Shown: one piece after another, positions 14,059 through 35,395 of the stretch | Position numbering within the stretch: position 1 is the stretch's first letter | Layout of the letters: the number at the start of each line of letters is the position of its first letter | Origin: Amyelois transitella | Taxonomy: Eukaryota > Arthropoda > Insecta > Lepidoptera > Pyralidae | NCBI RefSeq assembly: GCF_032362555.1 | Contig: NC_083531.1 | Location: 1,736,001-1,800,000 of the forward strand | DNA length: 64,000 nucleotides | Direction: 5' to 3' | Position numbers and translations under genes: made by a program | The notes under the pieces: generated by a model | The model's input: only the letters and a program-made list of their open reading frames with translations | The model's database searches: none | What the model was told of the DNA's origin: nothing

Positions 14059-17000
14059 ATGCCCAGAAAAGAGTCGTATTTTCTGTTTATTTTATTAAAT
14101 TCATTTATTTTAGTGCAATGTGGATATCCACCGGTAAGTACTGCTAGTGCCGTGTGGTTCCCGACACCAATACAAAAAAGAATAGGACCACTCCATCTCT
14201 TTCCCATGGATGTCGTAAAAGGCGACTAAGGGATAGGCTTACAAACTTGGGATTCTTTTTTAGGCGATGGGTAAGCAACCTGTCACTATTTGAATCTCAA
14301 TTCTATCATTAAGCCAAATAGCTGAACGTGGCCATTCAGTCTTTTCAAGACTGTTGGCTCTGTCTACCCCGCAAGGGATATAGACGTGACCATATGTAAA
14401 GGTATGTAGTATACTATTGCATTTTGTAGACTTTACGGGTTAGCTTTCATAAACCCATTGAATTTTGCACAATAGATAAGGTATGTACCTACTTACTATT
14501 TTTTTTAAACAAGAATCACAAAATACTTCATTTAAAAAGGAGGTTGATCAAATATCTATGAACTATAGTCGCAGACACAGATAAAAAATAACTATCGATG
14601 GATTCATTATAAAAAAAAATATTAAGACGGATCACTTAGGTAGATTAAAATCTTTTTCTAACTCTTCACTTTTTGTCAGTAAATAAAGCGCAATGTCCGG
14701 TTACTTCTAATAAAAATAAATTAAAGTAAATGTTAAAATACTATTCAATCATATGAATATTAAAAATCAACAAAGATTTTTTTGTATAAATGAAAAATAT
14801 ATGTAAGTACTTAGTTATTTATTAATTATTGAAAAATTAAATTAAATTAAGTTAGCGCACATTTGGCGATATCTTCTACTCAATAGAAGAATCATCGATT
14901 AATTTTACAAGAATTCAAATTCAAATTAAATTTACATACATACATACATACATATGGTCACGTCTATATCCCTTGCGGGGTAGACAGAGCCAACAATCTT
15001 GAAAAGACTGAATGGCCACGTTCAGCTATTTGGCTTAATGATAGAACCGAGATTCAAATAGTGACAGGTTGCTAGCCCATCGCCTAAAAGAGGAATCCTA
15101 AGTTTATAAGCCTATCCCTTAGTCGCCTTTTACGACATCCATGGGAAAGAGATGGAGTGGTCCTATTCTTTTTTGTAATAGTGCCGGGAACCACACGGCA
15201 CAAAAATTAAATTTATTTATTCATTATTATAGGATACTTCATATCGCTTAATGATTGTCAAAATTTTTGGTTTCACAACATTGGTTGACGTCAAATTAAT
15301 TACTTAAAACCAAGTTTACTGCCGCTTCCAAGGCGTCAGTGCAAAAGAAGCGGTAACAAATCTGTAGGTAATGTATTTTAAACACACACAATTGTGGCGA
15401 CATCTCTACGCCACTCGTCACAACATCCAATCACACAACAACTGTCAATCATCGCGAAGAAATTGACGCGCTCAGCCAATAGCAGCGAAGAATCCAAATC
15501 GCGATTTCAAAGATTTCATGGATTGGAGCTATATATAATATAAGTACAACCTCCGACACAACATCGTCTGTCGCGCGGTTCCCCAGGCATAACACCTAGC
15601 CTGACGGAAGATCTTCCCTTTGGTAGTGGTCGAGCAGAATCATCTCTCCCGCTACACAATTCAGAATATTTTCATACAAAAATATCCATTTTGGTCGGAA
15701 CACACATTAGATAGAATGCACGAAATTTCCTGTTCATCTTAATTAAGGATCTATCTTTTCTGCAAAGATCGGAGACGAGGTACAAGCTGGCAGTGTTCTG
15801 CTACCGGCCACGAGAAGAGGCCGGTACCTCGCTAACATCGTGAGAAGACAGGCTGTGGTATGTATAAATCAATCAATGAATCACCCATTGTGCCGTGTGG
15901 TTTCGGCACCAATAGAAAAAAAGAAGAGGTGGACTCCATGCCTTTCCCATGGATGTCGTAAAAGACGACTAAGGGATAGGTTTATAAACTTGAGATTTTT
16001 CTTTTAGGCGATGGGCTAACAAAATGTCAATATTTGAATCATTAAGCCAAATAGCTGAACGTGGCCATTCAGTCTTTTCAAGACTGTTGGCTCTGTTTAC
16101 CCCGCAAGGGATATAGACGTGACCATATGTATGTGTATGTATGCATAAAATACATACATATGTAAATGCCAAATAATGAACTTACACAAAATATGTCAAA
16201 TTAGCAAAGCTTGGAGTGGTAATAATTTTTAATTTTTTTTTTCTAATTATGACTTTGATTTAGTCGCGTATCTCATTCTGACTTCATGGATACCCAAGCC
16301 CCCAAGAGGGCTGCCGCGAAATCTATACACATATACATCTATTCCGATGTTCATTTAAACATGTTTTTTTTATAGGATGGCACAGGAATTAAATTCAACA
16401 AAGACGCTGACCGCGTAAGTGTCAAATGGTTTTTTTTTTAAAGAAAATATTGCTTTTATGAATACTTATATAGATAAACATATTTTATTTTTTTATTTTA
16501 TAATAGCTGTGCGATACGTCGTTTTGCCATATAAATAATTTTTAAGTAATTCTAAGGAACGAACATTGTGACACGAGAACTTTATATATATAAATCTTAC
16601 TAGCTGTGCCCGCGACTTCGTCCGCGTGGAATAGTTATTATGGGCATCATTGAAGCCCTCAAAGATGAATAATTTTCCCCGTTTTTTCACAATTTCCATT
16701 ATTTCTTCGTTCCTAAGTTGCAGCGTGATGTTATATAACCTAAAGCCTTCCTCGATGAATGGTCTATTCAACACAAAAATAATTTTTCAATTCGAACCAA
16801 AAGTTTCTGAGATTAGCGCGTTCAAACAAACTCTTCAGCTTTATAATATTAGTATAGATTATTTTTATTTCAAAACCTCCATCTGCAGATGAATGCAGAA
16901 GCGAAGAAGAAAGTGGACGTGCTTTCAGACGATCTCCTCCCTTACATAATGGCCGAACAAGAACGCCGCATCACCCTGTATAAGAGGGTCATGACAGCCA

Positions 17001-20000
17001 TACAGAACGGAGAGAAAGGTGTCACAATAGTCGAGATGAGAAATAAACCACCGCTCATTATTAAAAGAGGTATTTTGAAAGTTGAACTGATGTAACTGCT
17101 CAGAACAGAGTAGACAGAGCCAACAGTATTAACTTTTTAATACTGTTGGCTGAACGTGGCTTATCAGTCTTTACTGATAGGCCACGTTCAGCTGTTTGGC
17201 TTAATGATAGAATTGAGATTCAAATAGTGACAGGTTGCCAGCCTGTCACCTAAAATAATGCCAAATTTAAAAGCCTATCTATCCCTTAGTCACCTTTTAC
17301 GGTATCCACGAAGAAAGAGTGGTCCTATTCTTCTTTCTATTGGTGCCGGGAACCACACGGCACGTTTATATACCTACGTGGTAGTAATTTTAATCATCAC
17401 TCCCGCTACCCAGCAACCCGTCACTATTTGAATCTCAATTCTATCATTAAGACAAACAGCTGAACGTGGCCTATCAGTATTTTCAAGTTTGTTGCTTCTG
17501 TCTACCCCGTAAGGGATAAAGACGTGATCATATGTATGTATGTGTGTACTCCCGCTACATTTGTACCTATTAATGTCGTTTTCTTTCCATTTCTATATTT
17601 TCGAACCGCCGAGCTTGCATGAAGAGAGTTATGAATGTGGATGAAGCGAAGGAAGTATGCAGAGATCGTGGCAAGTGGAAAGAGGTAGACTCTGCCTACC
17701 CCTCCGGGAAAGAGGCGTGATTTTATGTAATATTTAACTACACAAGACCTATATTATATCCCGACGCTAAACTAACCTACCGCTCACCTTACTCATATAG
17801 CATTTAGGGTACATCATTAGATTTTGAAGATGGTTTGACCTCTATGTATCACGTCTATATTCCTTGCGAGGTAGACAGAGTCAGCAGACTTGAAAGACTG
17901 ACGGGGCACGTTCAGCTGTTTGGCTTAATGATAGAATTAAGATACAAATTGTGACAGGTTGCTAGCCCATCGCCTAAATGTATGTCTATATTTTCCAGGT
18001 CTAATGTACAGATGTCCATCAAACCGTGCGCCTAAAGAGCCCGACGGCTCGGGCAACATTTACTGCGAAGACGACATAGAGCCAATATTGGTGATGTATG
18101 ATTCCTGTCTCAGCGCCGAGGACAAGGAGCTTTTTGTCGCCGAGAACCATTACTTCTTTTGTAACCGTGAGTTGTTCCAAATTCAATTTCAAAATCGTTA
18201 TAATGCCGTGTGGTTCCCGGCACCAATACAAAAAAGAAAGGACCACTCCATCTCTTTCCCATGGATGTTGTAAAAGGCGACATAGGGATAGACCTATATA
18301 CCTACTTGGGATTCCACTTTAAGGCGATGGGCTAGCAACCTGCCATTATTTGAATCTCAATTCAATCATTAAGCCAAACAGCTTCAGTATTTTGATGTCT
18401 GTTGGCTCTGTCTACCCCGCAAGGGATATATATAGACGTGATTCTATGTCATGTCATGTAGTAGTAAATTTCAATTAAATCAATTCATCATAACAATGTA
18501 TTCTCTAATCCACATTTCTATTCTTATTCTGAGTTTGGATTTATTGAGAAGTTAACGTTATTGAAGAAAATGCTGCACTGCAGTTTGCACTGACGCTTCG
18601 GCAGCGGCAATAAACCTAGTTTTAAGTAATTTATTCGACGTCAACCAATGTGTGTGACACTAAAAGATATGACAATTATTAAGTAACTAGTTGTGCCCGC
18701 GACTTCGTCCGCGTGGTATAGTTATTTTGGGCATCATTGAAGCCCTCTAGGATGAATAATTTTCCCCGTTTTCACATATTCCATTATTTCTTTGCTTATA
18801 GTTGCAGCGTGATGTTATATAGCCTTCCTCGATAAATGGTCTATTCAACACAAAAAGAATATTACTGTTGCGTGCGCTGCGAAAACGGTTCAAGATACCA
18901 AAAATATATGTATGAATGAATTATTCCTCTTGAAATAATCTAAAAAAATGTCTACGACAGTATATGTCTATCTTTTACTATTAACTCACCAGAACCGTTT
19001 TTATGGTAATCAAAAATAAATAACTATTTCAAGCGGACGAAGTCGCGGGCACAGCTAGTACCCTATAAAGCGTGCGCACGCGCCCAAGACCTTCTCATTC
19101 GATCTTCTTCACCCACAAGAGATACAGACGTGATCCTACATGTACCTACCTTCTCCATCAGGGTACTGGCGGGAGATGCCTGATCTTCCCCGTACGAACA
19201 CCACAGTGGTGGGCTGCCCCCCAACTCAGCGGACTTCCTATAACTACACCATGAGTAAATGTGGCCTGGAGGGCTCCGAAGATGTCCTCGTCCATTATAG
19301 ATATTATCCTGATAGGGTAAGAAAAAAGTACCCGTGGTAGTTGAAGTAAAAGTAATGTGGTTCCCGGCACCAATAATAAAAAAGAATAGGACCACTCCAT
19401 CTCGTTCCCATGGATGTCGTAAAAAGCGACTAAGGAACTTGAGATTCTTCTTTTAGGCGATGGGCTAACAACCTGTCACTATTTGAATGCTTATTCTATC
19501 ATTAAGCCAAACGGCTGAACGTGGCCTATCAGACTTTTGAAGACTAATGGCTCTGTCTGTATACCCCGGAAGGGATATAGACGTGATTATATGTACGGGT
19601 ACTAATAACCTGTCACTATTTGAATCTCAATTCTATTTTTAAGCCAAACGGCTGAACGTGGCCTATCAATCTTTTGAAGACCGTTGGCTCTGTCTACCCC
19701 GGAAGGGATATAAACGTGATTATATGTATGTATGGGTAAGATAAGAAATACTAGTTGAATAGAACTAGAACTTGACACGAAAATATTTTTTGTATGTTTG
19801 TAACGCGATAACTTCAGAATTATTGGGCTGAACTTTATTAAACTTTAAATTCATGTAGGTTCTGTCAATGGCTTTTATAAGTTCGTGGGGCAAATAATTT
19901 GTTAAGAAGTTTTTAATATTAGAATAATAAATATATATAGAACTTTATTTAATATCTACATATATACTATATTAATTGTACACCTGTATCTAACGGATTT

Positions 20001-20156
20001 CCGGTGACATATAACTATGTATGTTTCAGACCTACAAATACGTGACGGAGTTAGATCCTGACAGGGAAGTCTGTGACCACTGGAACCCATGTCAGTTAGG
20101 ATATATCTTCGCGCTGCGGACCATAGACGAGGCTGAGGTGGCTAGCGAGCTCTGGC
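14059..20156 (+). CDS. Microexon gene, exons 1-7: signal peptide and 8-Cys N-terminal domain
   Basis: Seven ordinary exons encode about 278 residues. After the signal peptide a basic stretch (RRGRYLANIVRR) and a charged helical stretch (AEQERRITLYKRVMTAIQ) precede eight cysteines in the order RCPS, YCED, SCLS, FCNR, GCPP, KCGL, VCDH, PCQL. Eight cysteines in a secreted protein suggest four disulfides. Exon 7 ends in phase 1 directly before the first microexon. Confidence 0.8.
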
Positions 20157-23100
20157 GTAAGGCATATATACATACATACATGCACACATGCATATGCACT
20201 CATGCAAACATGCATACATGCACTCATGCATACATACAGACATGTTCACGTGCACACATGCCCTCATGCACACATATGTACATACATGCACTCATGCATA
20301 CATGCATACATACATAGTGTGTATGTATGCATGCATGCATGGTTGATTGCATGTATGATTGTATGTATTACATACATACAATCATGCCTGTGATTTCCAC
20401 AAGCAACGATCCTTACAGACCTCACCCGCTTCCTCCACACTCATCACTTTTTTCAAGTACATTGATACGACGATGATGAAGAGTACTTGTAACATGAATT
20501 TATAATAATGTCGATAAATTATAATAGCATAAAGCATTTTTAACCCCCGACTAAAAAAAGAGGGGTGTTATACATTTGATGTGTCTGTGGCATCATAACT
20601 CGCAAATGGATGGAGCTATTTCAATTTAGTTTTTTGGATTAAAAGTGATTTACGTGCGAGTGTTCTTAGACATGTTGATCAAAATCGGTTGAGCCGTTTA
20701 AGAGTTAAGAGTGTTGAAGGCCGAATGTCGGCGACTATACTCGAGTGAAAACGGAAGTTTTATGTCTATATATGCTAACCATACGAAGCCAGGGGCGGGT
20801 CGCTAGTTAAAAAAATTAAACAGAACAATACAATTAGTACCTAGTGGTATAACAGACAATAACAGTATAAGAGGACCCTGAAATTTAGAGGATTTTCCTC
20901 AGGATCCAGTAAACCAACTATTTCATACCCTGACGAATGAAAAAAAGTATATTTAAACACATTTTTATTTTTCACAGGTAATTACAGTATGTATAATATA
21001 ATTATATTACTTTAAGTCTTCATATTCCTCCTGGTGTTATATCATTGCCTCTCCCTTTTGACTGAATTTGCAGATTTCTTCACGACGTTTTTCCTAACCG
21101 TAAAAACTATCCTTCATCCTTATGGATAAAGGATAGGAAGGTAGATAAGATTATTCTTAAATCATAAAATCTTTCCCATTGCTGTCGTAAAAAGCGACTA
21201 AAGGATAGGCTTATGAACTTCGGATTCTTCTTCTCTCATCTCAATCTTTGAGCCATATAGATGAACGTGGCCATTCAGTAGGTATTTCCGTGAAACTGTC
21301 GGCCCTGTCGACCCCGTAAGGGAAAAAGACGTGATTATATGTATGTTGTTTGTAAATGAGAAACATCGTCAATAATAGATATGAGGGATTTGTATATTAA
21401 TAAAGTAAAATTCAATTATAATAACAATTATTTAATTCTTTTTGATTGTCTTTTTAGCGGAAAGTAAGTATTACTGAAAATTCAGGCTTCTTGTTATAAA
21501 AAAAATAATCATTGTTGGATAAAATTTCACAAGGAAATTTTTGGGGGGTCGAAAATAGCCTCAAATTGCTTCGAGAATAGGATGGTACGGCCGTGCCGCT
21601 TTTTTTTGCTCGACTTGGCTGGGGCACTACCGTGCCCTCATATATTTTTGTAAAAATTTTGTATGTAACCTACATTTTTATAATTCCTGTCGTATGCTAA
21701 ATTTTAGCAATATTCAACCGTTACGTTAGTAATTTTGAAGAAAACAACTTATTGTTTTATTAATTTTTTTTTACATTAAGAAAAATTGCATAAGTTTTAA
21801 TTTATTTTAATAAATATTTATTATTTTATGTTGATTATGTAGCTTAAATTTTGTTTTGCAAATATGTCAATAAATGATGATATACTAAAGATAAATTATT
21901 ACATTTGTTATTATATTTCAGTTCCCGAGGGTAAGTAGTCCAGTAAAAATAATCACGATTATGTATCATAATGGATACCTACACATCAATACTAATATTA
22001 TAAAGCTGAAGAGTTTGTTTGTTTGTTTGTTTGAACGCGCTTATCTCAGGAACTACTGGTTCGAATTAAAAAATTCTTTTTGTGTTGAATAGACCATTTA
22101 TCGAGGAAGGTTTTAGGCTATATAACATCACGCTGCAACTTTTAGGAGCGAAGAAATAATGGAAAATGTGAAAAAAAAAAACGGGAAAAATTATTCACCC
22201 TTGAGGGCTTCAATGATGCCCAAAATAACTATTTCACGCGGACGAAGTTGCGGGCACAGCTAGTTAGATATATTTTTTTATAAATAAATTATTTCATATT
22301 ATTAATATCAATTATTAATTACATTTCCATAGATTATGAACGTAAGTACCTACCTATCTTAATACAATTAGTGTATTTTTAATTTAAAAAAATCTAATAT
22401 TCTAAAAAGTGCCGTTGCCGTGTGATTCCCTGTACCAATAAAAAAAAAGAATAGGACCGCTCCTTCTATTTCCCATGGATGTCATAAGAGGGGACAAAGG
22501 GATAAGCTTAAAAACTTTGGGTTCTTCTTATAGGCGATGGACTAGCAACCTGTCAATATTTGAATCTCAATTCTATCATCAAGCCGAAAAGCTGAACGTG
22601 GCCTATCAGTATTTTCAAGACTGTTGGCTCTGTCTAACCCGCAAGGGATATAGACGTGACTATATGTATCTATATACATACTTATGTATTTTAAAACGTG
22701 TGTTACAAATAATACAGGTATTAAACACGCACATAACGTACCTTTATTTAATCTCGGACGTGTCGAATCATGTTACAATAAATAATCCGTGGTGTAGTGC
22801 ATATGTATAAGAATGAAAGAGAAGGAAGTATTATGCCGTCTCTAGCACACATGCCACCATGATGGATTTTGAACAGCAGTTCATAATGGAGGGTACAGTG
22901 TGTATCTGAGAGCCGATAAGCGGGTGGGTAAGCGAATCTCTACACATTGTCACCAAGCGACTGAAAACCAGCGGCTTAATCTATCCTTCATACATACATA
23001 CAATCACGTCTATATCCCTTGCGGGGTAGACAGAGCCTACAGTCTTGTAAAGTCTGATAGGCCACGTTCAGCTATTTGGCTTTAAGATAGGATTGAGATT

Positions 23101-26100
23101 CAAATAGTGACAGGTTGCTAGCCCATCGCCTAAAAGAAGAATCCCAAGTTTATAAGCCTACCCCTTAGTCGGCTTTTACGACATCCATGGGAATGAGTTG
23201 AAGTGGTCCTATTCTTTTTTGTATTGGTGCCGGGAATCACACGGCACTATAATCTATCCTACTAATATTATAAATGCGAAAGTTTGTGAGTATGTCAGGA
23301 TGTCAGTATGGATGTTTGTTACTCTTTCGCGCAAAAATTACTGAACCGATTACGATGTTTGGTATGTAGGTAGACCCAGAATAACATATAGGCTACTTTA
23401 CTTAGGAATTGATTGTTAAATTATGATGGGCTTCCACGCGGACGAAGTCGCAGTTCTGTTCATCAGTCATAGTACCAAATTAATCAAAATAATTTTAATT
23501 AACTGTATAATAATTTTAATTAACCAAGTTTATAATCCAATATCAAAATAATTATTTCAGGAGATGGTACGTAATAAATGCAATTTATAAAAATACTTAC
23601 TTTATAACTTAGTATTTTAAACTTAACTCAGTATATTAACTTAGTACCTATATCTACGTGCATTCTGGGCGACAATGAATTTGAAAATTATAGTCATCAA
23701 TTTAGTTAATTGAGGATTTGGCATAACTTATAAAAATAACGTTGCATCGCTCATCAAATTATAAATAATATAATTAAATTTTATTTAATAAATTTAATTT
23801 AATTTATTGAAATGTAAAATGACGTAAAAAGTGCCTGCGAAGAAATATTATCTGAATCTGACTTTGATTTAAAACTAAAATTTCTTTTATTTTTTTTTTT
23901 ATTTTACAGAGTATGTTTCTCGTAAGTTTTATTTTTATTATCTCCATTAGTTTTAGTTAACTCCTATTCGCAGCTATTTAAGTTAAGAATTATATGTTCA
24001 TAAATTATAGTATAAAAACTAATTGTTGATTTTCTACAATAAAAAGGCCTGAATATAAGAATAAAAAGTAAGTTTTCTTATGAAAGAATAAGTGTTATAA
24101 AAGTTATAGAAGGAGTTCAAAATTTTTTTTTTATTAGAATAAATGAGTATAAATAACTTATCTGCAGTATAAATTATTCTAATATATATGTATTTATATA
24201 ATAACTTACAGATAATAAAAAAAACTAATAAACTTAGACTTACAGTTAACTTAAATAACTGCGTCAATTTTACCTCACACGAGTATCTTTTCTGTATTAC
24301 AAAATATGATTATCTTACTAGGGTTAAGGTTATTTGGTAAAATTGAAACGAGCAAGAGACTTATTATTTTGGTATAATTTTTAGCTGTGGCTGGTAAGTA
24401 AATTTAACTAGAGAATGAAGCACTAATGACAATGTCGGTTATTGAAAATCAATTCATTAATGCCGTGCCGTGTGGTTCCCGGCACCAATACAAAAAAGAA
24501 TAGGACCACTCCGTCACTTTCCCATGGGTGTCGTAAAAGGCGACTAAGGGATAGGCTTACAAACTTGGGATTCTTTTTTAGGCGATGGGCTAGCAACCTG
24601 TCACTATTAGAATCTCAATTCTATCATTAAGCCAAACAGCTGAACGTGGCCTATCAGTTTTTGATGACTGCTGGCTCTGTCTACCCCGCAAAGGATAAGA
24701 CGTGACCATATGTATGTTCATTAATGCATTATGTTAGTGATGCTGTCACACCCTCTACAATGAAACTTATATATTTTTTAATATTATTTCTTAGTTCGAA
24801 TATATTAGCCCCACGTTGGGTGCCACTGTGACGTTTTAGGTAAAACGTTGCAAGTTAGGTTATCTGTTACACACATAAAGTACTCTGTCAGACCCAAGGG
24901 TTGACTGGTAGATAATGCTTCTAGCATTTAGTCCGCCAATTGTGCTATATATTTTTATTTTGTGCAATGAAGTTTAAATAAATAAATAAGTATGTACTGT
25001 GAATATCGATTTCGTAAAAGGCGACTAAGGGATAGGCTTATAAATTTGGGATTCTTCTTTTAGGCGATGGGCTAGCAACCTGTCACAATTTGAATCTCAA
25101 TTCAATTATAAAGCCAAACAGCTGAACGTGCCCCGTCGGTATTTCAAGACTGCTGGCTTTGTCTACCTCGCAAGGAATATAGACGTGATACATAGAGGTC
25201 AAACGATCTTCAAATTCTAATGATGTAGGTACCCTAAATGCTATAATATATGTGTAAGGTGAGCGGTAGGTTAGTTTAGCGTCGTTATATAATATAGGTA
25301 TTGTGTAGTTAAATATTACATACATACATACATAAAATCACGCCTCTTTCCCGGAGGGGTAGGCAGAGACTGCCTCTTTCCATTTGCCACGATATCTGCA
25401 TACTTCCTTCGCTTCATCCACATTCATAACTCTCTTCATGCAAGCTCAGCGGTTTCGGGTACTTTTGACCTGACCCTTTACCAGGACGTCCTTAATTTGA
25501 TCAAGATACGTTTAACAAGTTAAATATTTATGTTTTATTTTCAGAGGACTCCATGACAGAAAGTGTAGTGTTTGACAAACCTTACGAGTTTTCACGCCAA
25601 GTGAAATTACTCGCTAATTACAAAATCAAGCACGTGGAGAGGAGAAACTGTAAACATTGCAAGGAAGGACCAAATTCACCGGTTAGAATAAATAAATAAA
25701 AAAAAAAAATAATAATAAATGATGCCGTGTGGTTCCCGGCACCAATACAAAAAAGAATAGGACCACTCCATCTCATTCCCATGGATGTCGTAAAAGGCGA
25801 CTAAGGGATAGGCTTACAAACTTGGGATTCTTTTTTAGGCGATGGGCTAGCAACCTGTCACTGGTTGAATCTCAATTCTATCTTAAAGCCAAAAAGCTCA
25901 ACGTGGCCTATCAGAGTCTTTACAAGACTATTGGCTCTGTCTACCCCGCCAGGGATATGGACGTGACCATATGTATGTATGTATGAATACAACTCACAAA
26001 AGAGGATCATTCACACATTATCATCACAGGTTAACGAAAATTATGTGAAAATCGAGGAGGACGAGTCTGGGTACGCTACTGTTACCATCAACTGGCCAAG

Positions 26101-29100
26101 GTTCCCATCATCAGACGCTGATCTCTGGGTGGTGATGGAGAACGACGCTGGTGACGAGAAGAGGGAGAAACTAGCCGATTTTGGTAAGTTTTAAGCCGAT
26201 ATTTCGGATTCGAACAAGGAATTAATCCTCAGTCTCCTGGCGGTAGGTCAGTGGTCAAGTGTAGTCTTACTAGGTCTTAGTCAAGTCTTAGTCTTAGTCA
26301 AGTAACCGGCAAGCTTGCATGAAGAACTTGGACCACTAAAGTTTTTCTGTTTGGTCAGCTGGTCTGATAGAGAATGCCAAACGGCATTAAGTCCGCCTTT
26401 TGTATACATTTTTTTTTTGAAATAAAGTAAATAAGACATATAATAATGAATACACACATACATTGTGACGTCAATAAGTGATACCTTGTATCCAATTTTG
26501 AAAATAAATTTATTCTATTCTATTCTATTCTAAATAAGAGTCGGGTAGTCACACTTTCTAGATCCCTTACGGAGTCTACATAAAGCGCCGCTTCGCGACG
26601 AAACTTACGGATAAGTCCGCCATTGTGCATTGTTTTTTTAATGTCTTTTTATGTACTACTAAAATGTATTATCTGTACTAATATTATAAAGCTGAAGGGT
26701 TTGTTTGTTTGAACGCGCTTATCTCAGGAACTACTAGTTCGAATTGCAAAATTATTATTTATAAATTTTCGTTGAATGGTCTATTTATCGAGGAAGGCTT
26801 TAGGCTATATAACATCACGCTGCAACTATTATGAGCGAAGAAAAAATTGAAAATGTGAAAAAAACGGGGAAAATTCATCCTTGAGGGTTTCAATGATGCC
26901 CAAAATAACTATTCCACGCGGATGAAGACGCCGGCACAGCTAGTTTATTCATATACGTAATCAAGTCGAGCCTTCCTCGATAAATGTTCTATCCAACACA
27001 AAAATAATTTTTCAATTCGAACCAGTAGTTCTTGAGATTAGCGCGTTCAAACAAACAAACAAACTCTTCAGCTTTATAATATTAGTAACGAATTTTCTCA
27101 TGTCATTTCAGCTCAAGCGGCCATTTCAGCGGTGCCTAAGAAATTAGACGCGGTGCCCGCTCAACGCTTTGAAGACTCAATAACAGTTAACTACGAATGT
27201 GATCGGTGTACCTTGGAGTATATTGTTGTCCGTGGAGACAGAGACAAGAGCCTTGTTATACTGGACAAGTCAAGATTTAAGACCATAGATGGCTCGGAGT
27301 AAGTATTTTTTAAGTTTTTTTTTGTGTTTGTACACGTACAATTTAATGTATAGACTTAATAGGATGTCAAATAGTAGGAAATGAAGCGATTCTTTACATA
27401 AAATTAAATTGAATAATTTCTTTATTTTTGTACCAACTTAGATCAAAAATATTTGTGACCGAGATCTCCTTTTAAGTATTAACACGAACACTTATTTAAT
27501 ATAATAATTATTAATGCACAATTTAGATCTAATTATTTAAAAATTGCCAATCAAATACAATGCAAACACAAACAACATGACGTTTGGGTTCCCGCGTAAA
27601 GCTCAAATTTTATGTTAGTTTTTTTTTTTGTCGTATTGGCAAACGAAGTTTTTCATGTGATTATTTTTTGCCAGTGTCAAGTGTACTTAAAGATTATTTG
27701 TCGTATTAGGAGTAATAGCTGTGGATGTTTCTATTCTAGGACTTTTTGGGACATCAAAAGTCACCGAATTCGTTTTTGTTGATATTTCACTTATTTTTTA
27801 ATAATCTACACTTTTAAATAACATTGCATCAAACATTCATTTTGGAAAAAAAAAATAATAGCGCAAACAACATAAAGTTTGGATTCTCGCCAAATAATAA
27901 GTATTTTTAATGGTAGTATTATTGGCGGTCACGGCAACATGTCTTATAAGGCTATTTACACGTATAAACTCATCAGACGATGGGCATTTTTTTTACATTA
28001 TAATCACGTCTATATCCCCTGCGGGATAGACAGAGCCAACAGTCTTGAACAGAAAACTAGATGTGTAACCATGATCGATCCAATACCAAAAACCTTGCTC
28101 ACCCAATCCAGGGTTCATGGGCAAAAGCATACCCCGGGCTCCTCTCCTGAGTGGTGAGGATGCAACCGGGACTAGAAGCCAGGAGGAAGCAGATAATTAT
28201 ATTATACTGATTACTAAATTTCCTTTCCAGAGGAAAATACATACAATTCGACCTGGGCCGGCTGAAGCCCAAAGACGTGGGTCAATACTTCGGCCAATTC
28301 ACCGACGGTAATGGCAACCCGGAGAGAGTGAAACTGCTTACCCTTGACGGTAAGTTTACTAAGGCATATAAGTAAATAGTACCTGGGCGACCGAGCTCAG
28401 CTCGGTGAAATGACATCAGTAAAACAAAACAAAAATTGTTTTTGTTAAATTGTAGTTGTGTTAGTAGCGACTAAGGGATAGGCTTATAACCTTGGGATTC
28501 TTCTTTTAGGCGATGGGCTAGCAACTTGTCACTATTTGAATCTCAAATCTATCATTAAGCCAAACAGCTGAATGTGGCCTTTCAGTCTTTTGATGACTGT
28601 TGGCTCTGTCTACCCCGCAAGGGATAAAGACGTGATTATATGTAATGTAATGTAATCCTCCGTTGCCAGACTCCACGATGTGAACACCTGTACGACTTTA
28701 AAGTCAATATAAATTTTGGATACACTGTTTTTTTAAATAAATGAAAGTACCTACCTATTTTATTGATTCCCAATTGTTTTTCAGGGCCAAGGCGTGGTAA
28801 GTTCTCATATATACAACTCATCTATACAAATATTATAAAGCTGAAGAGTTTGTTTGTTTGTTTAAACGTGCTAATCTAAGTAACTTCTGATTCGAATTGA
28901 CAAATTTTCTTTTTGAGTTGAACAGACCATTTATCGAGGAAGGCTTTAGGCTATATAACATCACGCTGCAACTATTAGGAGCGAAGAAATAATGGAATAT
29001 GTGAAAAAAACGGGGAAAATTATTCATCCTTGAATTCAATGATGCCCAAAATTACTATTCCACGCGGACGAAGTCCCACGCACAGCTAGTCTATAATAAT

Positions 29101-32100
29101 TTGACACACTTTTTTTTAATTATATTAATTTAATATTTTTTTAACATCTGTTGTTTGCTAGATGTTTACTTATAAATTTAAATCGTGTTAAGTTCAAATT
29201 TTTTTATTATTATTTTATTTCAGACAATAGTAAGTTAATCAATCTGTGTTTAAATTTATTTATATTTATTTATACACAAGTATATTCTTTGCATACCTAT
29301 TAAAGTTTACTTTGTATTTTTAATAATCATATGTTTGGATGTATGTATGTAATAATCACATAAAAAAATAATTTTGTTTGATTACTTTGGATAAAAGTAT
29401 TTTAAATTTTTAACAATTACTTTTTATTTTCTAGAAAATAGTAAGTATATCTTAAAAATATTATGTTTACTGAGTGATTTACTATTATTTTAATGATAAA
29501 TTATTTTAAGAGGAGTTCACAAAGGTTCTCTGCTTAACCCAATGGTAGACTGTTAGATATGATATTAGCATTAAGTATGCCTATTGTACTTACTTAACAA
29601 ATTGTGAATGTTACAATACAAATATATAATTGTCAATAACATAACGAGGAACCGATAAATTGAACCTACACACTCATGCTTCTACACCAATTCTAAATTA
29701 CAGACTAAAAATATTATTGTTTAAATTTTGACTATTAATTCAAATTTAAATTCAAAATTTTTATTCGTTATTATAGGATATTTCATATCGCTTAATAATT
29801 GTCAAATCTATTGGTTTCACAACATTGGTTCATTGACGGCAAATAAATTACTTAATACTAAGTTTACTGCCGCTTCCAAGGCGTCAGTTCAGAAGAAGCG
29901 GTAACAAACTGCACTGCAGCATTTTCTTCAACAACGTCAACTTCACAACAATCCAAACTTAGAATAGAAATGTGGACGAGAGAATACATTGTTCAGATTA
30001 ATTAATTTATATGAGATTTTAATAATTAATATAATAATATTTTTTTATGGATTGCCAATTTTAAATAGATTTATGTACAGAGTGTACTGAATTTTGATTT
30101 AGGTTCAAATCAAACTACAATTCATTAAGAGGTTCCTGTGCCAAGCTCAAGCATTGAGTAATTGAATAATTCCCTTTCAGTAATGACCGTGAACCGCCTC
30201 AAGGTGTCCGGCACCGTGGGCCAGCCGTTCGACCACACCGTGACCTACTCCTGCGACAGTTGCGAGCTGACTGACATAATTTGCAACGGAGACAGCATGA
30301 TATCGGGCAACAAAGTGTCGCATCTACCCGCAAATAAAAATGTTGTTTTTAATTTTCCCAAGTAAGTTTTTTATTTTATTTTTTTATAAATTATTTATCA
30401 AAAGGATTATAATTCCATTACCAATTCAAAATTAATCAAATGTTTTTGACAAATTCACTTTTGATTTTTTGGGGGAAGTTTCGTTTTATTCTTATTTACG
30501 GCCTCTGTGGCGCAGCGTTAATACACTTGTCTGTGACACCGGAGGTCCCGGGTTTGAATCCCGGACAAGGCATGAAAGAAACGAACTTTCTCTGATTTCT
30601 GATTCTGATTGGTCTGGGTCTTGGATGTTTATCTATCTAAGTATTTAAGTATTATAAAATATAGTATTGTTGAGTTAGTATCTCGTAACACAAGTCTCGA
30701 ACTTACTTCGAGGCTAACTCAATCTGTGTAATTTGTCCCGTATATATTTATTTATACTAACATTCTCATTTGTCATATAAACCGTTGATTTCAGCTTCCA
30801 AGATGAAAATGCGTGTGTCTACATTGGAACTTACACACATAGCAACTCTTCTTATAGAAAGATCTTTGCCGTTATTGACAGTAAGTTTTTTATTTATTCA
30901 TTTATATAAAACGCGTTTCGTGCACACATCTACATTTTACACACATCATGACTGAGATATTTATCAAAAAAATAAATAATTTTGAATAAGTTAAATTATT
31001 AGATTGTCATAAAGATTTAAAAAAAAAATAAGCAAAAATCAAAACTCATGTGGGTATGCAAAATAATAAAATGTGAAAAAAATAAACTTATTTTGTTTTT
31101 ATCCTAATATCAATTGGATTTCCATAGAATTTCGCCAAAGACATAGTTTTAACAAGAAAACATACTGTTGACCATGGCAAAATTGTTTTCAAAAATTTAT
31201 TTATGAAAACGGGCCCGACATAGGCCGTTATTTTATCGTTACGTTAACAGTATATAAAAAGCTATTACTTACATATTTTGTTTTACTAAATTAATAGTCT
31301 TTTATATAAAAATCTTAAAAAATATTTACCAAGAGCTATATTTTTTGAATTCCGGTATTTATTTTTTGACTCTAAATAATAAGGGTCATAAAACTTACCT
31401 ACATAGGTATGTTTTACATCGTTTAGTCATTGGAAACTGATAAAACTTTCATCATTCTTTTTTCAGACGACTGTAAGTAAAAATTTTTATTAAGAAAAAC
31501 AGAACATCTCTTGGAATAAATACTGTTACATTAATTATTATATCAACATTGTCTATTTATTTTCGTTCTTTTTATTTACAGCAAAAGGTATTTTTTATAT
31601 TAGATTTACTTAAACTCCTATGACTTACTAGTTTGTCATCTTTATAAAAAATTCATCACTTTATAACAAATTCAAAATCATTATAAAAAATTTAACTCAC
31701 GGTTATTTAAATTGATAGCGACATCACTACGTCACACGCCATCTGCCAATAACAGCGAAGTACGCTACGTGATCAGCCAATAGCAGCGAAGATTCTTAAT
31801 CGTTCAAGTTTTATTTCTAAGTACTGGAGCATATAACTTCAACCTCTTGTTTTTGTGGCGATCGAGATAGATAGATAGATAAATAAAACTCTTTATTGCA
31901 CCATAAGAGTTAAACATACAAAACAGCACAAAACAGATAGAGATGGTACAAAGGCGGACTTATCGCTAATGCAATCTCTTCCAGTCAACCCTTGGGTGGA
32001 AGGAAACCAAACAGGAGATTGGCGTTGACGCAGAACAAGATAAATAAATGTTAAAACATAATAAAATACACACAGAATATACATCTTATATATAAATTTC

Positions 32101-35100
32101 TCGTGTCACAATGTTTGTCTCCGTACTCCTCCGAAACGGCTTTACCGATTTTAACCAAACTTTGCATGCATATTCAGTAGGTCTGAGAATCGGCTAACAT
32201 CTATTTTTCATACCTCTTATTGATAAGGGTTGTCCACACTTGACATTTTTTTTTACCTATAAATTACTTAAAAAATATTTATATGGCAAAACAACGTTTG
32301 CCGGGACAGCTAGTATATCTATATAATAAAGAGATCTAATCTATCCATATAATAACTAGAGATAATTAATCGTCGCTCCAGTAACGATTACTTTGTTCAT
32401 TATAATTTTTTTTTATGTAGACGTATCCGTGTCGGAGGAAAGCGTTGATGCGCCGAAAGTCGGAGACGGGTTTGAAGTTGAACTGCCAATAAGCTGCGAA
32501 GGATGTACGGTAGAGGCGGTTAGTATTTTACATACATACATATGGTCACGTCTATATCCCTTGCGGGGTAGACAGAGCCAACAGTCTTGAAAAGACTGAA
32601 TGGCCACGTTCAGCTATTTGGTTTAATGATAGGAATTGAGATTCAAATAGTGACAGGTTGCTAGCCCATCGCCTAAAAAAGAATCACAAGTATGTAAGCC
32701 TAACACTTAGTCACCTTTTACGACATCCAGAAAGAGATGGAGTGGTCCTATTCTTTCTTGTATTAGTGCCGGGAACCACACGGCACGTATTTTATATAAA
32801 TATATATATTATACATACATATAATCATGTCTAATCCCTTGCAGACAGAACCAGCAGTCTTGTAAGACAACAGTAAAGACTGATAGGCTAAGTTCAGCTG
32901 TTTGGCTTAATTGATAGAATTGAAATTCAAATAGTGATAGCCCATCGCCTAATTGAAGAATCCCAAGTTGATAAGCCTATTCCTTAGTCGCCTTTTACGA
33001 CATCCATGGAAATGAGACGGAACGATTTTATTCCTTTTTTTATCGGTGCCGGGAATAAGACGGCATAAATATTATTCGGGTAATATATATATTATATATA
33101 TATATATAAACTGACATACTAATTTTTCGGTGAAGATTGAAGACGTCTCCAACACCTACAAAAGAATACACTGCGCTGCGCAGATCATTTTATGTACAAA
33201 ATTGCTACTGCGCATTCCGAAAGTGGCAAATTCTAAATTCTACTTATTTGCGGGGTGCTATACTGTGTAACACTGCGGGGTGCTATACCTACTTACAATG
33301 TCATTGAAAATTATGAAACATGTTAGCTTGATAGAAATTGCACATTTATTTTTAGGTTTCGGTGAACGGCGTTCCCCTTGATCCAGAGCCAACCCGGAGA
33401 TTTGACGTATCACCCACGGCATGTTACCTGGTAAGATTTTGTTATTTTTTCAAACAATAGATTAACCTATATTTTAGACTACGAGCACTGAAATCCTTAT
33501 ATGAGGATTCGAGTGCTTGTGTCAGGATAAACGAGGCGCACACTGTGGGATGTGTTGCGTCACCGTGGCTGTTCAACCTATTTATGGATAGTTGTTTGAC
33601 AGATTTGAAAGAGTCTGAAAGTGGATTAAGGATGAATGAGTTACTCGTCAAATGTCTGCTCTATGCCGACGATCAGGTTATACTGGCGTCATCAGCGGAG
33701 GAGTTACAGGAGATGGTAAACTGTATGCATGAAGCTTTAAAAGAGAAAGGAATGAAAGTGAACGTAAGTAAAACTAAAACACTGGTTTTTACATGGAGGG
33801 TGTGGAGGGAATGGTCGGAGTGGGAAGACCTACACGAACGTATCTTGATCAAATTAAGGACGTCCAGGTAAAGGGTCAGGTCAAGAGTACCCGAAACCGC
33901 CGAGCTTGCATGAAGAGAGTTATGAATGTGGATGAAGCGAAGGAAATATGCAGAGATCGTGGCAAGTGGAAAGAGGTAGTCTCTGCCTACCCCTCCGGGA
34001 AAGAGGCGTGATTTTTATGTATATATGTGTGTATATTTTATACTCGTATATTAACTCAGCGCCACCTGATTATATTTTCTCTGGGTGAAGTTTTATACAC
34101 AATTTACAGGTTACCTGGAAGAGAACGCTCAAAGTTTCTCTGTTTGGTCAGCTGGTAGTTTAGTAGAGATTGCCAAACGGCATTAAGTCCGCCTTTTTTG
34201 TGTAATAAAGTTTCAAATTAATAAATACTAGTGTCAACAAATTCTTAAAATATAAATATTGTTTTTCAGGCGACCGGCACTTCTATTAAAATTCGAATCA
34301 GCTCTTTCACCGTAGGCTACGCCGGCATCTACCAAGCGTTGTTTAAGTTTAAATCAACAAATATTACCAAGACTTTACTAGAAATCAAGTAAGTGATTCA
34401 AACAACATCAAACTCCTTTCTCGGCAATATTCGACGGCGTAGAATGCAGCCTACGATACCGAATGAAAACTCAATTACGGCTTTACTACGAGGATATTAA
34501 ATTCAAAATCCAAAATCAAATATCTCCTGCTATCTCGCTCTAGTTAGCTAGTCTACTAGCTCTCGTTAGTAGTACAATAGCGCACAGTTCGCGGTTTCAA
34601 ATGGCGCGCTCTGATTGGCTGAACCGCTCAAATGTTTTCGCGCCACTGAAAAATTTGACATGTGTTTGACACATGTGTAACATTGAAAACTTTCACAAAA
34701 TCCCTTTTTTTCAGGGATGGCGAAGAAGGCGGCGCGCCATCTGGTGGAACTGGTACGATTTTTGATATCCTTAAAAAATAAAGAAATGAGGTACAATGAT
34801 AATTAACGATTTAAACTCTTCGATTTTGAATAGTCATACATACATTTATCATCTTGTCTTGTCATGGCTAAAAGACCATGTTCAGCTGTATGGCTTAATG
34901 GAATTGATTTAATTTTAAAGTTACCAGCTTAAAAATTATATTGACAGTTCCTACAATATTTTTTGTTGATCATCAAAATCAACCAAATAGTTTTTGAGAT
35001 CTTCACAATTTTATTAAAATTTAAAGCGTCCGCGAGGTCTATGTTTGCGGCAAACGACTAGTACCTTATTTCTTTTTTTACAACTCCATGATATTTCATC

Positions 35101-35395
35101 AGGCACAGAATCGGCCGGCGACGCGTCAGAAAGTCCAGATGGTGATGCCACTGAACCTTCAGCGGACGGTTCAGAAACTCCTGAAGGGGAAACCACTGAG
35201 GGGGGCGAAGCCGCAGAAGGCGGTGAAGCCACTGAAGCAGCCGAAGAGGCAGCCGCGGATGAAAGAAGAATGGGTGTTAAAAATAGACATACCACTGTCC
35301 CTACTCAAACATCACAAGACACTACTCCAGTGGCAGCCACAGATGCGGTAACATCTGCTGTCACTGGAACCAGTAGTGCGACTGAGAAGAGTTAA
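14059..35395 (+). CDS. Large secreted modular protein with 12 phase-1 microexons (unrecognised family)
   Basis: Thirty coding exons join to 805 aa plus stop: 14059..14133, 15768..15857, 16376..16414, 16889..17069, 17999..18166, 19162..19316, 20030..20156, seven microexons (20978-24393), 25545..25681, 26030..26183, 27112..27298, 28231..28349, three microexons (28785-29440), 30181..30361, 30795..30880, two microexons (31467-31587), 32421..32518, 33356..33430, 34270..34388, 34715..34752, 35103..35395. The summed length, 2418 nt, is divisible by three and every join is GT-AG with matching phase. The first exon encodes a signal peptide (hydrophobic FLFILLNSFILVQC). Then come an 8-Cys N-terminal domain, an acidic linker, four modules each with C-x2-C, and an acidic Thr/Ser/Glu tail. 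I do not recognise the family; the modules look beta-rich, perhaps immunoglobulin-like, but this is inference. It sits between two inverted sericin-like genes, suggesting a silk or extracellular-coat role. Confidence 0.82.
14148..14408 (+). repeat. Family A SINE after exon 1 of the microexon gene
   Basis: Starts 14 bases after the exon 1 donor. Full, well conserved copy, so a young insertion. Confidence 0.82.
14936..15204 (-). repeat. Family A SINE-like repeat
   Basis: Full copy; (CATA)n end first. Confidence 0.82.
15222..15365 (+). repeat. Family G repeat
   Basis: Contains GGATACTTCATATCGCTTAA, CATTGGTTGACGTCAAAT and CCGCTTCCAAGGCGTCAGTG. Recurs at 18530, 29768, 43450 and 61600. Confidence 0.7.
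15393..15656 (+). mobile_element. Solo LTR with 4-bp target-site duplication
   Basis: 264 bases beginning TGTGGCGACA and ending CCGCTACA, with the TG...CA ends of an LTR. CAAT flanks it on both sides (15389-15392 and 15657-15660). It contains a promoter-like TATATATAATATAAG. No internal retrotransposon sequence is present, so recombination between two LTRs probably removed it; a short TRIM-like element is the alternative. Confidence 0.82.
15889..16150 (+). repeat. Family A SINE-like repeat
   Basis: Starts about 30 bases after the exon 2 donor of the microexon gene; somewhat diverged. Confidence 0.78.
16600..16860 (-). repeat. Family C retroposon
   Basis: CTAGCTGTGCCCGCGACTTC start, ATTAGTATAGAT end, 28 bases before the exon 4 acceptor. 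Confidence 0.75.
17100..17364 (-). repeat. Family A SINE-like repeat
   Basis: Body and head intact; the tail near 17100-17170 is rearranged, with an inverted duplication of the ACTGTTGGCTGAACGTGGC part. Confidence 0.7.
17400..17548 (+). repeat. Family A repeat, 5'-truncated
   Basis: Body to TATG end. Confidence 0.68.
17600..17722 (+). pseudogene. RTE-like LINE, 3' end fragment
   Basis: Codes CMKRVMNVDEAKEVCRDRGK and the terminal YPSGKEA; ends GCGTGATTTTATG. Confidence 0.8.
17845..17982 (-). repeat. Family A repeat fragment before exon 5 acceptor
   Basis: Tail and body without head, ending 16 bases before the exon. Confidence 0.65.
18202..18463 (+). repeat. Family A SINE-like repeat
   Basis: Full copy, 35 bases after the exon 5 donor. 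Confidence 0.8.
18530..18680 (-). repeat. Family G repeat, partial
   Basis: GACGCTTCGGCAGCGG and GACGTCAACCAATG in reverse orientation. Confidence 0.55.
18686..18865 (-). repeat. Family C retroposon, truncated
   Basis: Starts CTAGTTGTGCCCGCGACTTC and is cut after CACAAAAAGAATATT; a detached end (GCGGACGAAGTCGCGGGCAC) lies at 19034-19057 in the opposite sense. Confidence 0.65.
19350..19735 (+). repeat. Two tandem family A copies
   Basis: A full copy (19350-19610) is followed head-to-tail by a second 3' half (19611-19735). They share the unusual CCCCGGAAGGGATAT tail variant, so the second half probably arose by local duplication. Confidence 0.75.
20160..20395. repeat. Compound CATA/CATG/CACA microsatellite
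   Basis: Over 200 bases of CATACATGCACA-type repeats starting about 3 bases after the exon 7 donor of the microexon gene, ending as mirrored TGTATG repeats. Confidence 0.85.
20540..20815 (+). repeat. Family E repeat
   Basis: Starts ACCCCCGACTAAAAAAAGAG and ends CGAAGCCAGGGGCGGGTCGC. A related end occurs at 50290-50465 and 3615-3660. Confidence 0.65.
20978..24393 (+). CDS. Microexon cluster 1: seven exons of 6-12 nt (linker before module 1)
   Basis: Exons 20978..20986 (9 nt), 21458..21463 (6), 21922..21930 (9), 22333..22341 (9), 23561..23566 (6), 23910..23921 (12) and 24385..24393 (9). Each is preceded by a pyrimidine-rich AG acceptor and followed by a donor: gtatgt, gtaagt, gtaagt, gtaagt, gtacgt, gtaagt, gtaagt. 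All are phase 1 on both sides, so each adds two to four whole residues: RNY, TE, IPE, DYE, RD, EYVS, PVA. Together they form an acidic, Tyr-bearing linker. The 23561 exon could alternatively end 4 bases later at another GT, which would break the frame. Confidence 0.72.
21170..21348 (+). repeat. Family A repeat, 5'-truncated
   Basis: Starts at the CCATTGCTGTCGTAAAAAGC part of the body; lies between microexons 1 and 2. Confidence 0.7.
21990..22265 (+). repeat. Family C retroposon, opposite orientation
   Basis: Begins ACTAATATTATAAAGCTGAA and ends GTTGCGGGCACAGCTAGTT. Between microexons 3 and 4. Confidence 0.75.
22408..22690 (+). repeat. Family A SINE-like repeat
   Basis: Full copy between microexons 4 and 5. 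Confidence 0.78.
22988..23250 (-). repeat. Family A SINE-like repeat
   Basis: Full copy in the same intron, opposite orientation to the previous one. Confidence 0.8.
23258..23455 (+). repeat. Family D retroposon
   Basis: ATTACTGAACCGATTACGATG and GCGGACGAAGTCGC end. Confidence 0.65.
24462..24720 (+). repeat. Family A SINE-like repeat
   Basis: Full copy 70 bases after microexon 7. Confidence 0.82.
24865..24995 (+). repeat. LINE 3' end fragment
   Basis: CTCTGTCAGACCCAAGGGTT, AGTCCGCCAATTGTG and an AAATAAATAAATAAG end. Very similar to 54050-54170. Confidence 0.6.
25012..25195 (+). repeat. Family A repeat, 5'-truncated
   Basis: Body and tail; resembles the 17845 copy including its neighbouring unique sequence, suggesting a segmental copy within the gene. 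Confidence 0.65.
25321..25515 (-). pseudogene. RTE-like LINE, 3' end fragment
   Basis: CATA run, CCCGGAGGGGTAGGCAGAG and the codons for the terminal part, ending 30 bases before the module 1 acceptor. Confidence 0.8.
25545..26183 (+). CDS. Microexon gene, module 1 (two exons)
   Basis: Exons 25545..25681 and 26030..26183. The module begins around SVVFDKPYEFSRQVKLLANY, carries CKHC, and continues with alternating hydrophobic and polar residues (YATVTINWPRF, DLWVVMEND) as in a beta sandwich. The splice between its two exons is phase 0, as in module 4. A family A SINE fills the 348-base intron almost completely. Confidence 0.8.
25721..25986 (+). repeat. Family A SINE within the module 1 intron
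   Basis: Full copy filling most of the 348-base intron between 25681 and 26030. Confidence 0.82.
26225..26640 (+). repeat. LINE 3' end fragments
   Basis: GTTTGGTCAGCTGGTCTGA and GCATTAAGTCCGCC (also at 34135-34200), then TTCTATTCTATTCTA and a family G-like CGCCGCTTCGCGACG piece. Confidence 0.5.
26675..26944 (+). repeat. Family C retroposon
   Basis: Full copy, opposite orientation to the next one. Confidence 0.75.
26961..27092 (-). repeat. Family C retroposon, truncated
   Basis: Second half only. With the neighbour at 26675-26944 it makes an inverted pair just before the module 2 acceptor. Confidence 0.7.
27112..28349 (+). CDS. Microexon gene, module 2 (two exons)
   Basis: Exons 27112..27298 and 28231..28349 encode about 102 residues starting AQAAISAVPKKLDAVPAQRF and carrying CDRC. 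The internal splice is phase 2, shared with module 3, and supports an old module duplication. I see no microexon between modules 1 and 2, so this linker differs from the other two. Confidence 0.8.
28000..28200. repeat. Family A tail plus an unrelated repeat
   Basis: 28000-28055 is a minus-orientation family A tail. 28060-28195 carries CCCCGGGCTCCTCTCCTGAG and is repeated in reverse at 45150-45240. Confidence 0.6.
28465..28660 (+). repeat. Family A repeat, 5'-truncated
   Basis: Body to the TATG end. Confidence 0.7.
28785..29440 (+). CDS. Microexon cluster 2: three exons of 12, 6 and 6 nt
   Basis: Exons 28785..28796, 29224..29229 and 29435..29440, each with a pyrimidine-rich acceptor and an exact gtaagt donor, all phase 1. 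They add GPRR, DN and KN between module 2 and module 3. GPRR followed by Asp/Asn is exposed and basic, unlike the acidic first linker. Confidence 0.75.
28808..29093 (+). repeat. Family C retroposon
   Basis: Begins 12 bases after microexon 28785-28796 and ends with CACGCACAGCTAGT. Confidence 0.75.
29768..29925 (+). repeat. Family G repeat
   Basis: GGATATTTCATATCGCTTAA and GCCGCTTCCAAGGCGTCAGT. Confidence 0.65.
30181..30880 (+). CDS. Microexon gene, module 3 (two exons)
   Basis: Exons 30181..30361 and 30795..30880. Starts MTVNRLKVSGTVGQPFDH, carries CDSC, then IICNG and later ACVYIG, so this module has two further cysteines. Its internal splice is phase 2, as in module 2. A tRNA-derived SINE occupies most of the intron (30500-30762), ending about 30 bases before the acceptor. 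Confidence 0.8.
30500..30762 (+). repeat. tRNA-derived SINE (family B)
   Basis: Full copy with A and B boxes inside the module 3 intron; one base is changed in the A box (GCAGCGTTAAT). Confidence 0.85.
31467..31587 (+). CDS. Microexon cluster 3: two 6-nt exons
   Basis: Exons 31467..31472 (donor gtaagt) and 31582..31587 (donor gtattt), phase 1, separated by only 109 bases. They add ND and SK between module 3 and module 4. The second donor is weaker than the others, so its use is less certain. Confidence 0.65.
31715..31870 (+). repeat. Fragment of the solo-LTR family
   Basis: GCGACATCACTACGTCACAC and CAGCCAATAGCAGCGAAGA. Confidence 0.6.
31880..32080 (-). repeat. LINE 3' end fragment
   Basis: AATAAAACTCTTTATTGCAC and GGCGGACTTATCGCTAATGC; a related end lies at 42245-42335. 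Confidence 0.55.
32085..32318 (+). repeat. Family F repeat
   Basis: TCCTCCGAAACGGCTTTACC to GCCGGGACAGCTAGT. Confidence 0.7.
32421..34388 (+). CDS. Microexon gene, module 4 (three exons)
   Basis: Exons 32421..32518, 33356..33430 and 34270..34388. Starts DVSVSEESVDAPKVGDGFEV, carries CEGC and a later ACYL. The introns are crowded with repeats: two family A SINEs and a plus-strand RTE-like reverse-transcriptase fragment lie between its exons. Confidence 0.8.
32529..32788 (-). repeat. Family A SINE next to a module 4 donor
   Basis: The CATA end starts about 10 bases after the donor at 32519. Confidence 0.82.
32810..33068 (-). repeat. Family A SINE-like repeat, diverged
   Basis: Second copy in the same intron and orientation, older by its changes. 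Confidence 0.7.
33476..34020 (+). pseudogene. RTE-like LINE fragment with internal deletion
   Basis: Carries part of the RT (CVASPWLFNLFMD, YADD) and the C-terminal end, but the middle and C-terminal RT parts are fused after a large deletion (33785-33795). Ends YPSGKEA and GCGTGATTTTTATG. Lies in the intron of module 4, opposite in strand to the longer copy at 36172. Confidence 0.85.
34120..34235 (+). repeat. LINE 3' end fragment
   Basis: TTTGGTCAGCTGGTAGTTTA and GCATTAAGTCCGCC with a TAATAAAG end, about 35 bases before the next exon. Confidence 0.55.
34715..35395 (+). CDS. Microexon gene, C-terminal acidic tail (two exons)
   Basis: Exons 34715..34752 and 35103..35395. The 38-nt exon codes KDGEEGGAPSGGT; the last exon codes a tail of about 98 residues rich in Glu, Ala, Thr, Ser and Gly, then DERRMGVKNR and a Thr/Ser/Ala-rich end suited to O-glycosylation. 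A further acceptor-like AG at about 35551 could start an alternative terminal exon; I see no need for it. Confidence 0.78.

Follow-up and report, generated by a model that had tools for sequence, protein, structure and literature searches.

A predicted 30-exon secreted-protein gene with twelve microexons of 6 to 12 nt between two sericin-like genes of the moth Amyelois transitella

Introduction

At 6-12 nt, the exons of a string fall short of the size commonly assumed to be manageable by exon definition. Frame-neutral small exons, down to 3 nt, are known between domains of a protein of the immunoglobulin superfamily (IgSF) from the muscle-specific block of NCAM; this block is found in vertebrates, lies at an FNIII boundary and has fewer exons than the twelve microexons of the moth gene reported here. 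Bicycle proteins, the products of the aphid bicycle genes, carry CYC motifs. Bicycle genes are classified by a gene-structure formula, the coefficients of which are printed in PMC9168663, and a saposin-like fold was reported for their proteins (PMC13041983). Secreted or exposed products, with variants that arise from alternative splicing, characterize the micro-exon genes (MEGs) of schistosomes. In these genes short exons of 6-36 bp, symmetric in phase, account for about 80% of the coding region (PMC5825161). The closest documented mechanism, by analogy, may be that of the receptor PTP-delta, where the four-residue mini-exon B acts as an adjustable linker between Ig domains and governs how Ig2 and Ig3 are spaced and oriented; affinity hardly altered when other four-residue inserts, or two copies of the mini-exon, took its place, while three copies lowered it threefold (PMC4423211). 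Exons of up to 15 nt are often missed in annotation, as shown for plants (PMC8831610).

The moth gene is located in a window of 64,000 nt from Amyelois transitella (contig NC_083531.1, positions 1,736,001 to 1,800,000 of the forward strand). Like the MEGs, it has a product predicted (by hydropathy) to be secreted and symmetric exons that occur in runs and can be as short as 6 nt; such exons make up 96 of its 2415 coding nt, compared with a share of about 80% for the MEGs. With the aphid bicycle genes (PMC9168663) it shares that they encode insect secreted proteins from many small exons of one phase, and it differs from them in its large ordinary exons. The bicycle formula gives it a linear score of -43.2 to -111.1 in all six phase assignments, and the string CYC is absent from the 805-residue protein. 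Membership of the families named as parallels in the initial annotation is thus not supported, given a microexon share of 4% versus about 80% and the negative formula. With mini-exons A and B of PTP-delta (PMC4423211) the likeness is in very short, frame-neutral extracellular inserts, one of them at an Ig-Ig junction; the differences are two sites versus twelve, and a neuronally studied receptor with phosphatase domains. The transmembrane segment and phosphatase domains of type IIa receptor phosphatases were not found in the moth protein, in which the likely signal peptide is followed by no other strongly hydrophobic segment and for which Pfam gave no phosphatase match. A described lepidopteran counterpart, of which the initial annotation knew none, was likewise not found in the literature (open-licence full texts); in a paper on reproductive genes of the corn borer (PMC4007636), the word microexon occurs once.

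Gene structure

Positions are those of the window and refer to the + strand unless stated otherwise. Rebuilt exon by exon, 30 exons at 14059-35395 join to 2418 nt, that is 805 codons and a stop, without internal stop, which agrees with the single open frame proposed in the initial annotation. AG precedes 29 of the 30 exons (all but exon 1), and GT follows 29 of the 30 (all but exon 30). The twelve proposed microexons of 6, 9 or 12 nt are all present at their positions; they sum to 96 nt of the 2415 coding nt (4%), and their host introns have sizes of 1.5 to 5.4 kb.

Exon 1 (14059-14133) contains the start codon and the likely signal peptide (MPRKESYFLFILLNSFILVQC, from hydropathy). Exons 2-7 (15768-15857, 16376-16414, 16889-17069, 17999-18166, 19162-19316 and 20030-20156) encode the N-terminal region. 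The following intron (20157-25544) hosts seven microexons of 9, 6, 9, 9, 6, 12 and 9 nt, at 20978-20986 (microexon 1, GTAATTACA), 21458-21463, 21922-21930, 22333-22341, 23561-23566 (microexon 5, with donor GTACGT and a competing donor that would make it 10 nt), 23910-23921 (microexon 6, with a competing GTATGT 1 base past the AG) and 24385-24393 (microexon 7, the last of the seven for an acidic first linker). Exons 15-16 (25545-25681 and 26030-26183) encode the first and most diverged of four predicted CxxC repeat units; the donor of exon 15, GTTAGA at 25682, is weak. The second unit is encoded by exons 17-18 (27112-27298 and 28231-28349), with a phase-2 intron inside. Microexons 8 (28785-28796, 12 nt), 9 (29224-29229, 6 nt) and 10 (29435-29440, 6 nt) follow in the intron 28350-30180, microexon 9 being the top-scoring microexon-like site of the window. 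The third unit (exons 22-23, 30181-30361 and 30795-30880) again has a phase-2 intron inside, and the intron 30881-32420 hosts microexons 11 (31467-31472) and 12 (31582-31587, donor GTATTT), of 6 nt each. The fourth unit is encoded by exons 26-28 (32421-32518, 33356-33430 and 34270-34388), and a low-complexity tail with many T, A, E and G residues, together with the stop, by exons 29-30 (34715-34752 and 35103-35395).

Two further candidates were excluded from the model. The symmetric exon candidate 30650-30673 (24 nt, score 13.2) lies in a phase-2 intron and had no other support. The 22-nt exon-like site 24168-24189 has good splice scores and breaks the frame; it is possibly a poison exon or a product of chance.

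Splice sites of the microexons

The donor is exactly GTAAGT in nine of the twelve microexons, the count given in the initial annotation, and GTATGT, GTACGT and GTATTT in the remaining three. GTAAGT is not significantly commoner here than in ordinary exons (8/17, P = 0.25). Among the 20 bases preceding the AG of each microexon acceptor, 8-16 are T, so that to call them T-rich was fair. Donor and acceptor matrices were trained on the intron sides of ordinary exons alone, with the microexons left out. On the acceptor matrix the ordinary acceptors (n = 17) score 7.1-16.5, values flattered by their being its training set, and it is below this minimum of 7.1 that half of the microexon acceptors fall: 20978 (2.4), 21458 (1.5), 21922 (5.4), 22333 (3.8), 24385 (1.8) and 31582 (6.8). 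The lowest totals of donor and acceptor are those of 20978 (9.9) and 31582 (10.0). Microexon 1 opens with GTAATT straight after the AG and could, for this reason, double as a recursive splice site. Neural microexons are marked by an upstream TGC, a motif absent within 30 nt upstream of all twelve acceptors.

Microexons have a G+C content of 43% versus 32% in the host introns (P = 0.04); this is not above that of AG..GT-flanked pieces of the same introns (P = 0.23), and G+C is weak as evidence of coding. An origin of the microexons as recent duplicates of each other was considered and is not supported by matches between their neighbourhoods. The only match that spans a microexon is that of 29224 with 29435 (77% over 43 bases); 21458 and 22333 match in 52 AT-rich bases upstream of the microexons (79%), and the remaining long matches are overlapping windows or copies of repeats.

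Comparison with chance

Microexon-like sites of 3-15 nt with lengths in multiples of three were counted, and each host intron was shuffled 200 times with dinucleotide composition retained. At a cut-off of 9.9, the score of the weakest microexon, which was chosen post hoc and favours the claim of an excess, the three host introns contain 7, 3 and 2 matches versus shuffle means of 0.785, 0.425 and 0.20; the shuffle maxima are 5, 3 and 1, the count of the second intron being reached by a shuffle. The counts are 6, 3 and 1 versus means of 0.535, 0.16 and 0.125 (maxima 4, 2 and 3) at a cut-off of 11.5, and 3, 3 and 1 versus means of 0.065, 0.02 and 0.01 (maxima 2, 1 and 1) at 15. No such site at 9.9 was found in the 14 other introns of the gene (10,256 bp). 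The flanking + strand (42 kb) contains 4 sites at 9.9, 2 at 11.5 and none at 15, and the whole minus strand of the window 14, 13 and 1, respectively. When sites of 3-15 nt with a length divisible by three are ranked by score over the + strand of the whole 64 kb, microexons of the string take each of the first eight places, and all twelve rank within the top sixteen. The excess of the string over chance is thus confirmed. The microexons at 20978 and 31582 have a strength that chance can reach, and one or two of the weakest could be due to it.

Length offers the best independent test for the microexons. When exon-like sites of 1-30 nt were taken from the host introns, multiples of three made up 12 of 15 at a cut-off of 9.9 (P = 0.0003), 10 of 13 at 11.5 (P = 0.002) and 8 of 11 at 13 (P = 0.009), where two pairs of matches have a common acceptor and the matches are therefore not fully independent. 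A strict scan, with the length free within 3-15 nt and at least 10 of 15 pyrimidines, YAG and GTAAGT demanded, gave 11 matches on the + strand, of which 9 lie within the gene, and 2 on the minus strand. All nine matches in the gene are multiples of three; relaxing the pyrimidine limit to 9 or 8 added to these a 7-nt match at 34382, which adjoins a true donor. Such a length bias would not be expected from splice-like noise or from recursive splicing points.

All twelve microexons are 1-1 symmetric and lie in phase-1 introns; three of the seven phase-1 introns bear microexons versus none of the ten other introns (Fisher P = 0.051). Every subset of microexons leaves the frame open, in 128, 8 and 4 combinations for the three host introns, all 140 in sum. 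Because every subset stays open, the open frame across the microexons is no evidence of their inclusion. The statement of the initial annotation that the model needs no forced choices of phase is accordingly true but carries little weight.

Protein features

Hydropathy peaks in a 19-residue window that begins at residue 8, and this N-terminal peak makes a signal peptide likely, as was proposed. Past residue 31 the top hydropathy value is 0.86. Residues 26-279 form the N-terminal region with its eight cysteines, and T, A, E and G abound in the last 105 residues. Serine accounts for 56 of the 805 residues (7%).

The four repeat units, as drawn at 25545-34388, have an invariant CxxC (4/4) and no other invariant Cys. 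Their identity to unit 2 is 25, 26 and 16%; by tblastn, units 2 and 3 match with 36-39% identity over about 33 residues (E 0.26-0.29). Comparison of the protein with itself by BLASTP, with matches allowed up to E 10, did not reveal any internal repeat. No Ig family was found in Pfam with the whole protein (E up to 5) or with the four units (E up to 10), searches in which the HMMER filters drop weak matches. The Pfam matches obtained were one non-Ig family for a single unit (E 0.015) and, with the whole protein as query, two non-Ig families that stayed below their cut-offs (E 0.032 and 0.12). The whole protein had no match in the PDB at E up to 5. A PDB search with a profile of the units gave nothing significant; the best match was a pilin (E 0.027), followed by azurins, with Ig chains among the weak matches from E 0.12. 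In the Ig superfamily a Cys pair joins strands B and F, and we take the ends of the units to resemble the D-x-G-x-Y stretch of Ig domains. The units are regarded as Ig-like by inference, probably as beta-sandwiches. In tblastn searches of the window no tandem copy of the gene was found elsewhere, matches outside the gene having E values of at least 0.95; a 103-residue unit compared with viral contigs gave six pattern matches, none of which was confirmed as a relative.

The first seven microexons separate the N-terminal region from unit 1; the next three fall at the junction of units 2 and 3 and the last two at that of units 3 and 4, and the junction of units 1 and 2 has none. All microexons are outside the units as drawn, a position which is partly circular, the exons being known when the units were delimited. 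Exon borders have no bearing on the CxxC pairs or on the tblastn match of units 2 and 3. The 7, 3 and 2 microexons encode linkers of 20, 8 and 4 residues. The first linker, RNYTEIPEDYERDEYVSPVA, is acidic and has three tyrosines; with all seven microexons left out it would read LWQDSM. At full length the linkers are ordinary hydrophilic sequence. The number of distinct linkers obtainable from subsets of microexons is 128, 8 and 4, and an N-glycosylation sequon occurs in 33 of 128 forms of the first, in none of the 8 forms of the second and in 2 of the 4 forms of the third.

Interpretation

The explanation that fits best, with a rough probability of 0.55, is a real and intact gene for a secreted multi-domain protein, in which frame-neutral microexons let splicing tune the linkers between domains. 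The protein would consist of the N-terminal Cys-containing region, four diverged CxxC units (probably Ig-like) and an acidic low-complexity tail, and the twelve phase-1 microexons would contribute the linkers at three inter-domain junctions. From the excess and the length and phase bias we infer that the microexons are spliced into the mRNA, possibly in alternative combinations. As each of them can be included or skipped in frame, splicing could decide how long and how charged the linkers are and whether they are N-glycosylated. Such changes may alter the spacing and reach of the domains, and perhaps binding, in the way of mini-exon B between Ig2 and Ig3 of PTP-delta. The placement at predicted domain boundaries would point to linker control, as by the mini-exons of PTP-delta, rather than to a protein built of microexons.

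The main alternative is that the microexons are real and always included, as a frozen structure of cut-up linkers or gained small exons with no regulatory use. This is possible, at distinctly lower odds than tunable linkers: the exact GTAAGT at nine of the twelve donors favours steady use, as does the ordinary hydrophilic sequence of the complete linkers, whereas exons of 6-12 nt are usually hard to include constitutively and half of the acceptors here are weak. Moreover, all twelve are frame-neutral and at predicted domain boundaries, and cutting up a linker need not yield 1-1 exons of 6-12 nt alone. Some or all of the sites might instead be recursive-splicing steps or decoys that aid intron removal and leave no residues in the mRNA. 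Microexon 1, with its GTAATT right after the AG, and microexon 6, whose competing GTATGT would make it a near zero-length exon, look the part, yet such steps do not require multiples of three, which are found in 12/15 and 9/9 matches, and the host introns are just 1.5 to 5.4 kb long; this explanation is improbable.

Slightly less probable still is that splice-like motifs of AT-rich introns arose by chance and were picked to fit by a pattern reader. The post hoc cut-off, shuffle maxima of 5, 3 and 1 in 200 shuffles each, the 14 sites on the minus strand, the six weak acceptors and the chance-level strength of the two weakest microexons speak for it; the empty 14 control introns, the mere 4 sites in 42 kb of flanking + strand and the rank of the microexons among the + strand sites speak against it, and a chance origin of the nine microexons with GTAAGT is unlikely. 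Least probable of all is that the gene represents, in Lepidoptera, a family of micro-exon effectors of the MEG or bicycle kind: secretion and many symmetric tiny exons of a single phase would suit it, while the 4% share of coding sequence, the bicycle scores and the lack of CYC do not. Returning to tunable linkers, a stronger version has the three banks of 7, 3 and 2 microexons act as a combinatorial linker code of up to 4096 forms that tunes domain spacing, charge and glycosylation, possibly in silk or the silk gland, and that has an evolutionary origin separate from those of MEGs, bicycle genes and synaptic mini-exons; this version is doubtful. Seven microexons in a row at one domain boundary make a compact natural test of the splicing of tiny exons, and the gene could serve to test whether such exons act as a dial of linker length outside neurons and parasites.

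Genomic neighbourhood

As stated in the initial annotation, the gene lies between two sericin-like genes; the flanking long repeat ORFs have 52% Ser (upstream, 8311-11175, + strand) and 63% Ser (downstream, 38298-41153, minus strand). Serine-rich repeat genes thus flank it on both sides, in contrast to the 7% serine of its own protein. This position puts the gene among sericin-like genes and not in silk as such, and makes it at most a candidate for a silk role. Were silk glands to use it, silk-associated proteins would gain a further kind, one that repeat-based searches overlook. Sericin clusters with conserved neighbours are described for pyralids in PMC9745057. No microexon gene of this kind is named in the available parts of two pyralid sericin papers (PMC9745057 and PMC12661448). 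The term 'immunoglobulin' occurs 0 times in the main text of either, and 'exon' 0 times in that of PMC9745057; the main text of PMC12661448 has no instance of 'micro-exon' and four of 'exon', those in the parts available being on probes.

The two sericin-like genes contain long tandem arrays of 24, 36 and 108 bp (8418-10896 and 38328-41006), both made of SGS-type repeats and on opposite strands. At 4825-4854, MRYFALLALV followed by GTAAGT resembles a signal-peptide exon of the upstream sericin-like gene. An ORF that by eye resembles a LINE-like reverse transcriptase (36193-37326, minus strand) separates the gene from the downstream sericin-like gene; the intron that follows exon 27 contains a fragment related to it (33500-34030), and a short SINE-like repeat occurs in several introns.
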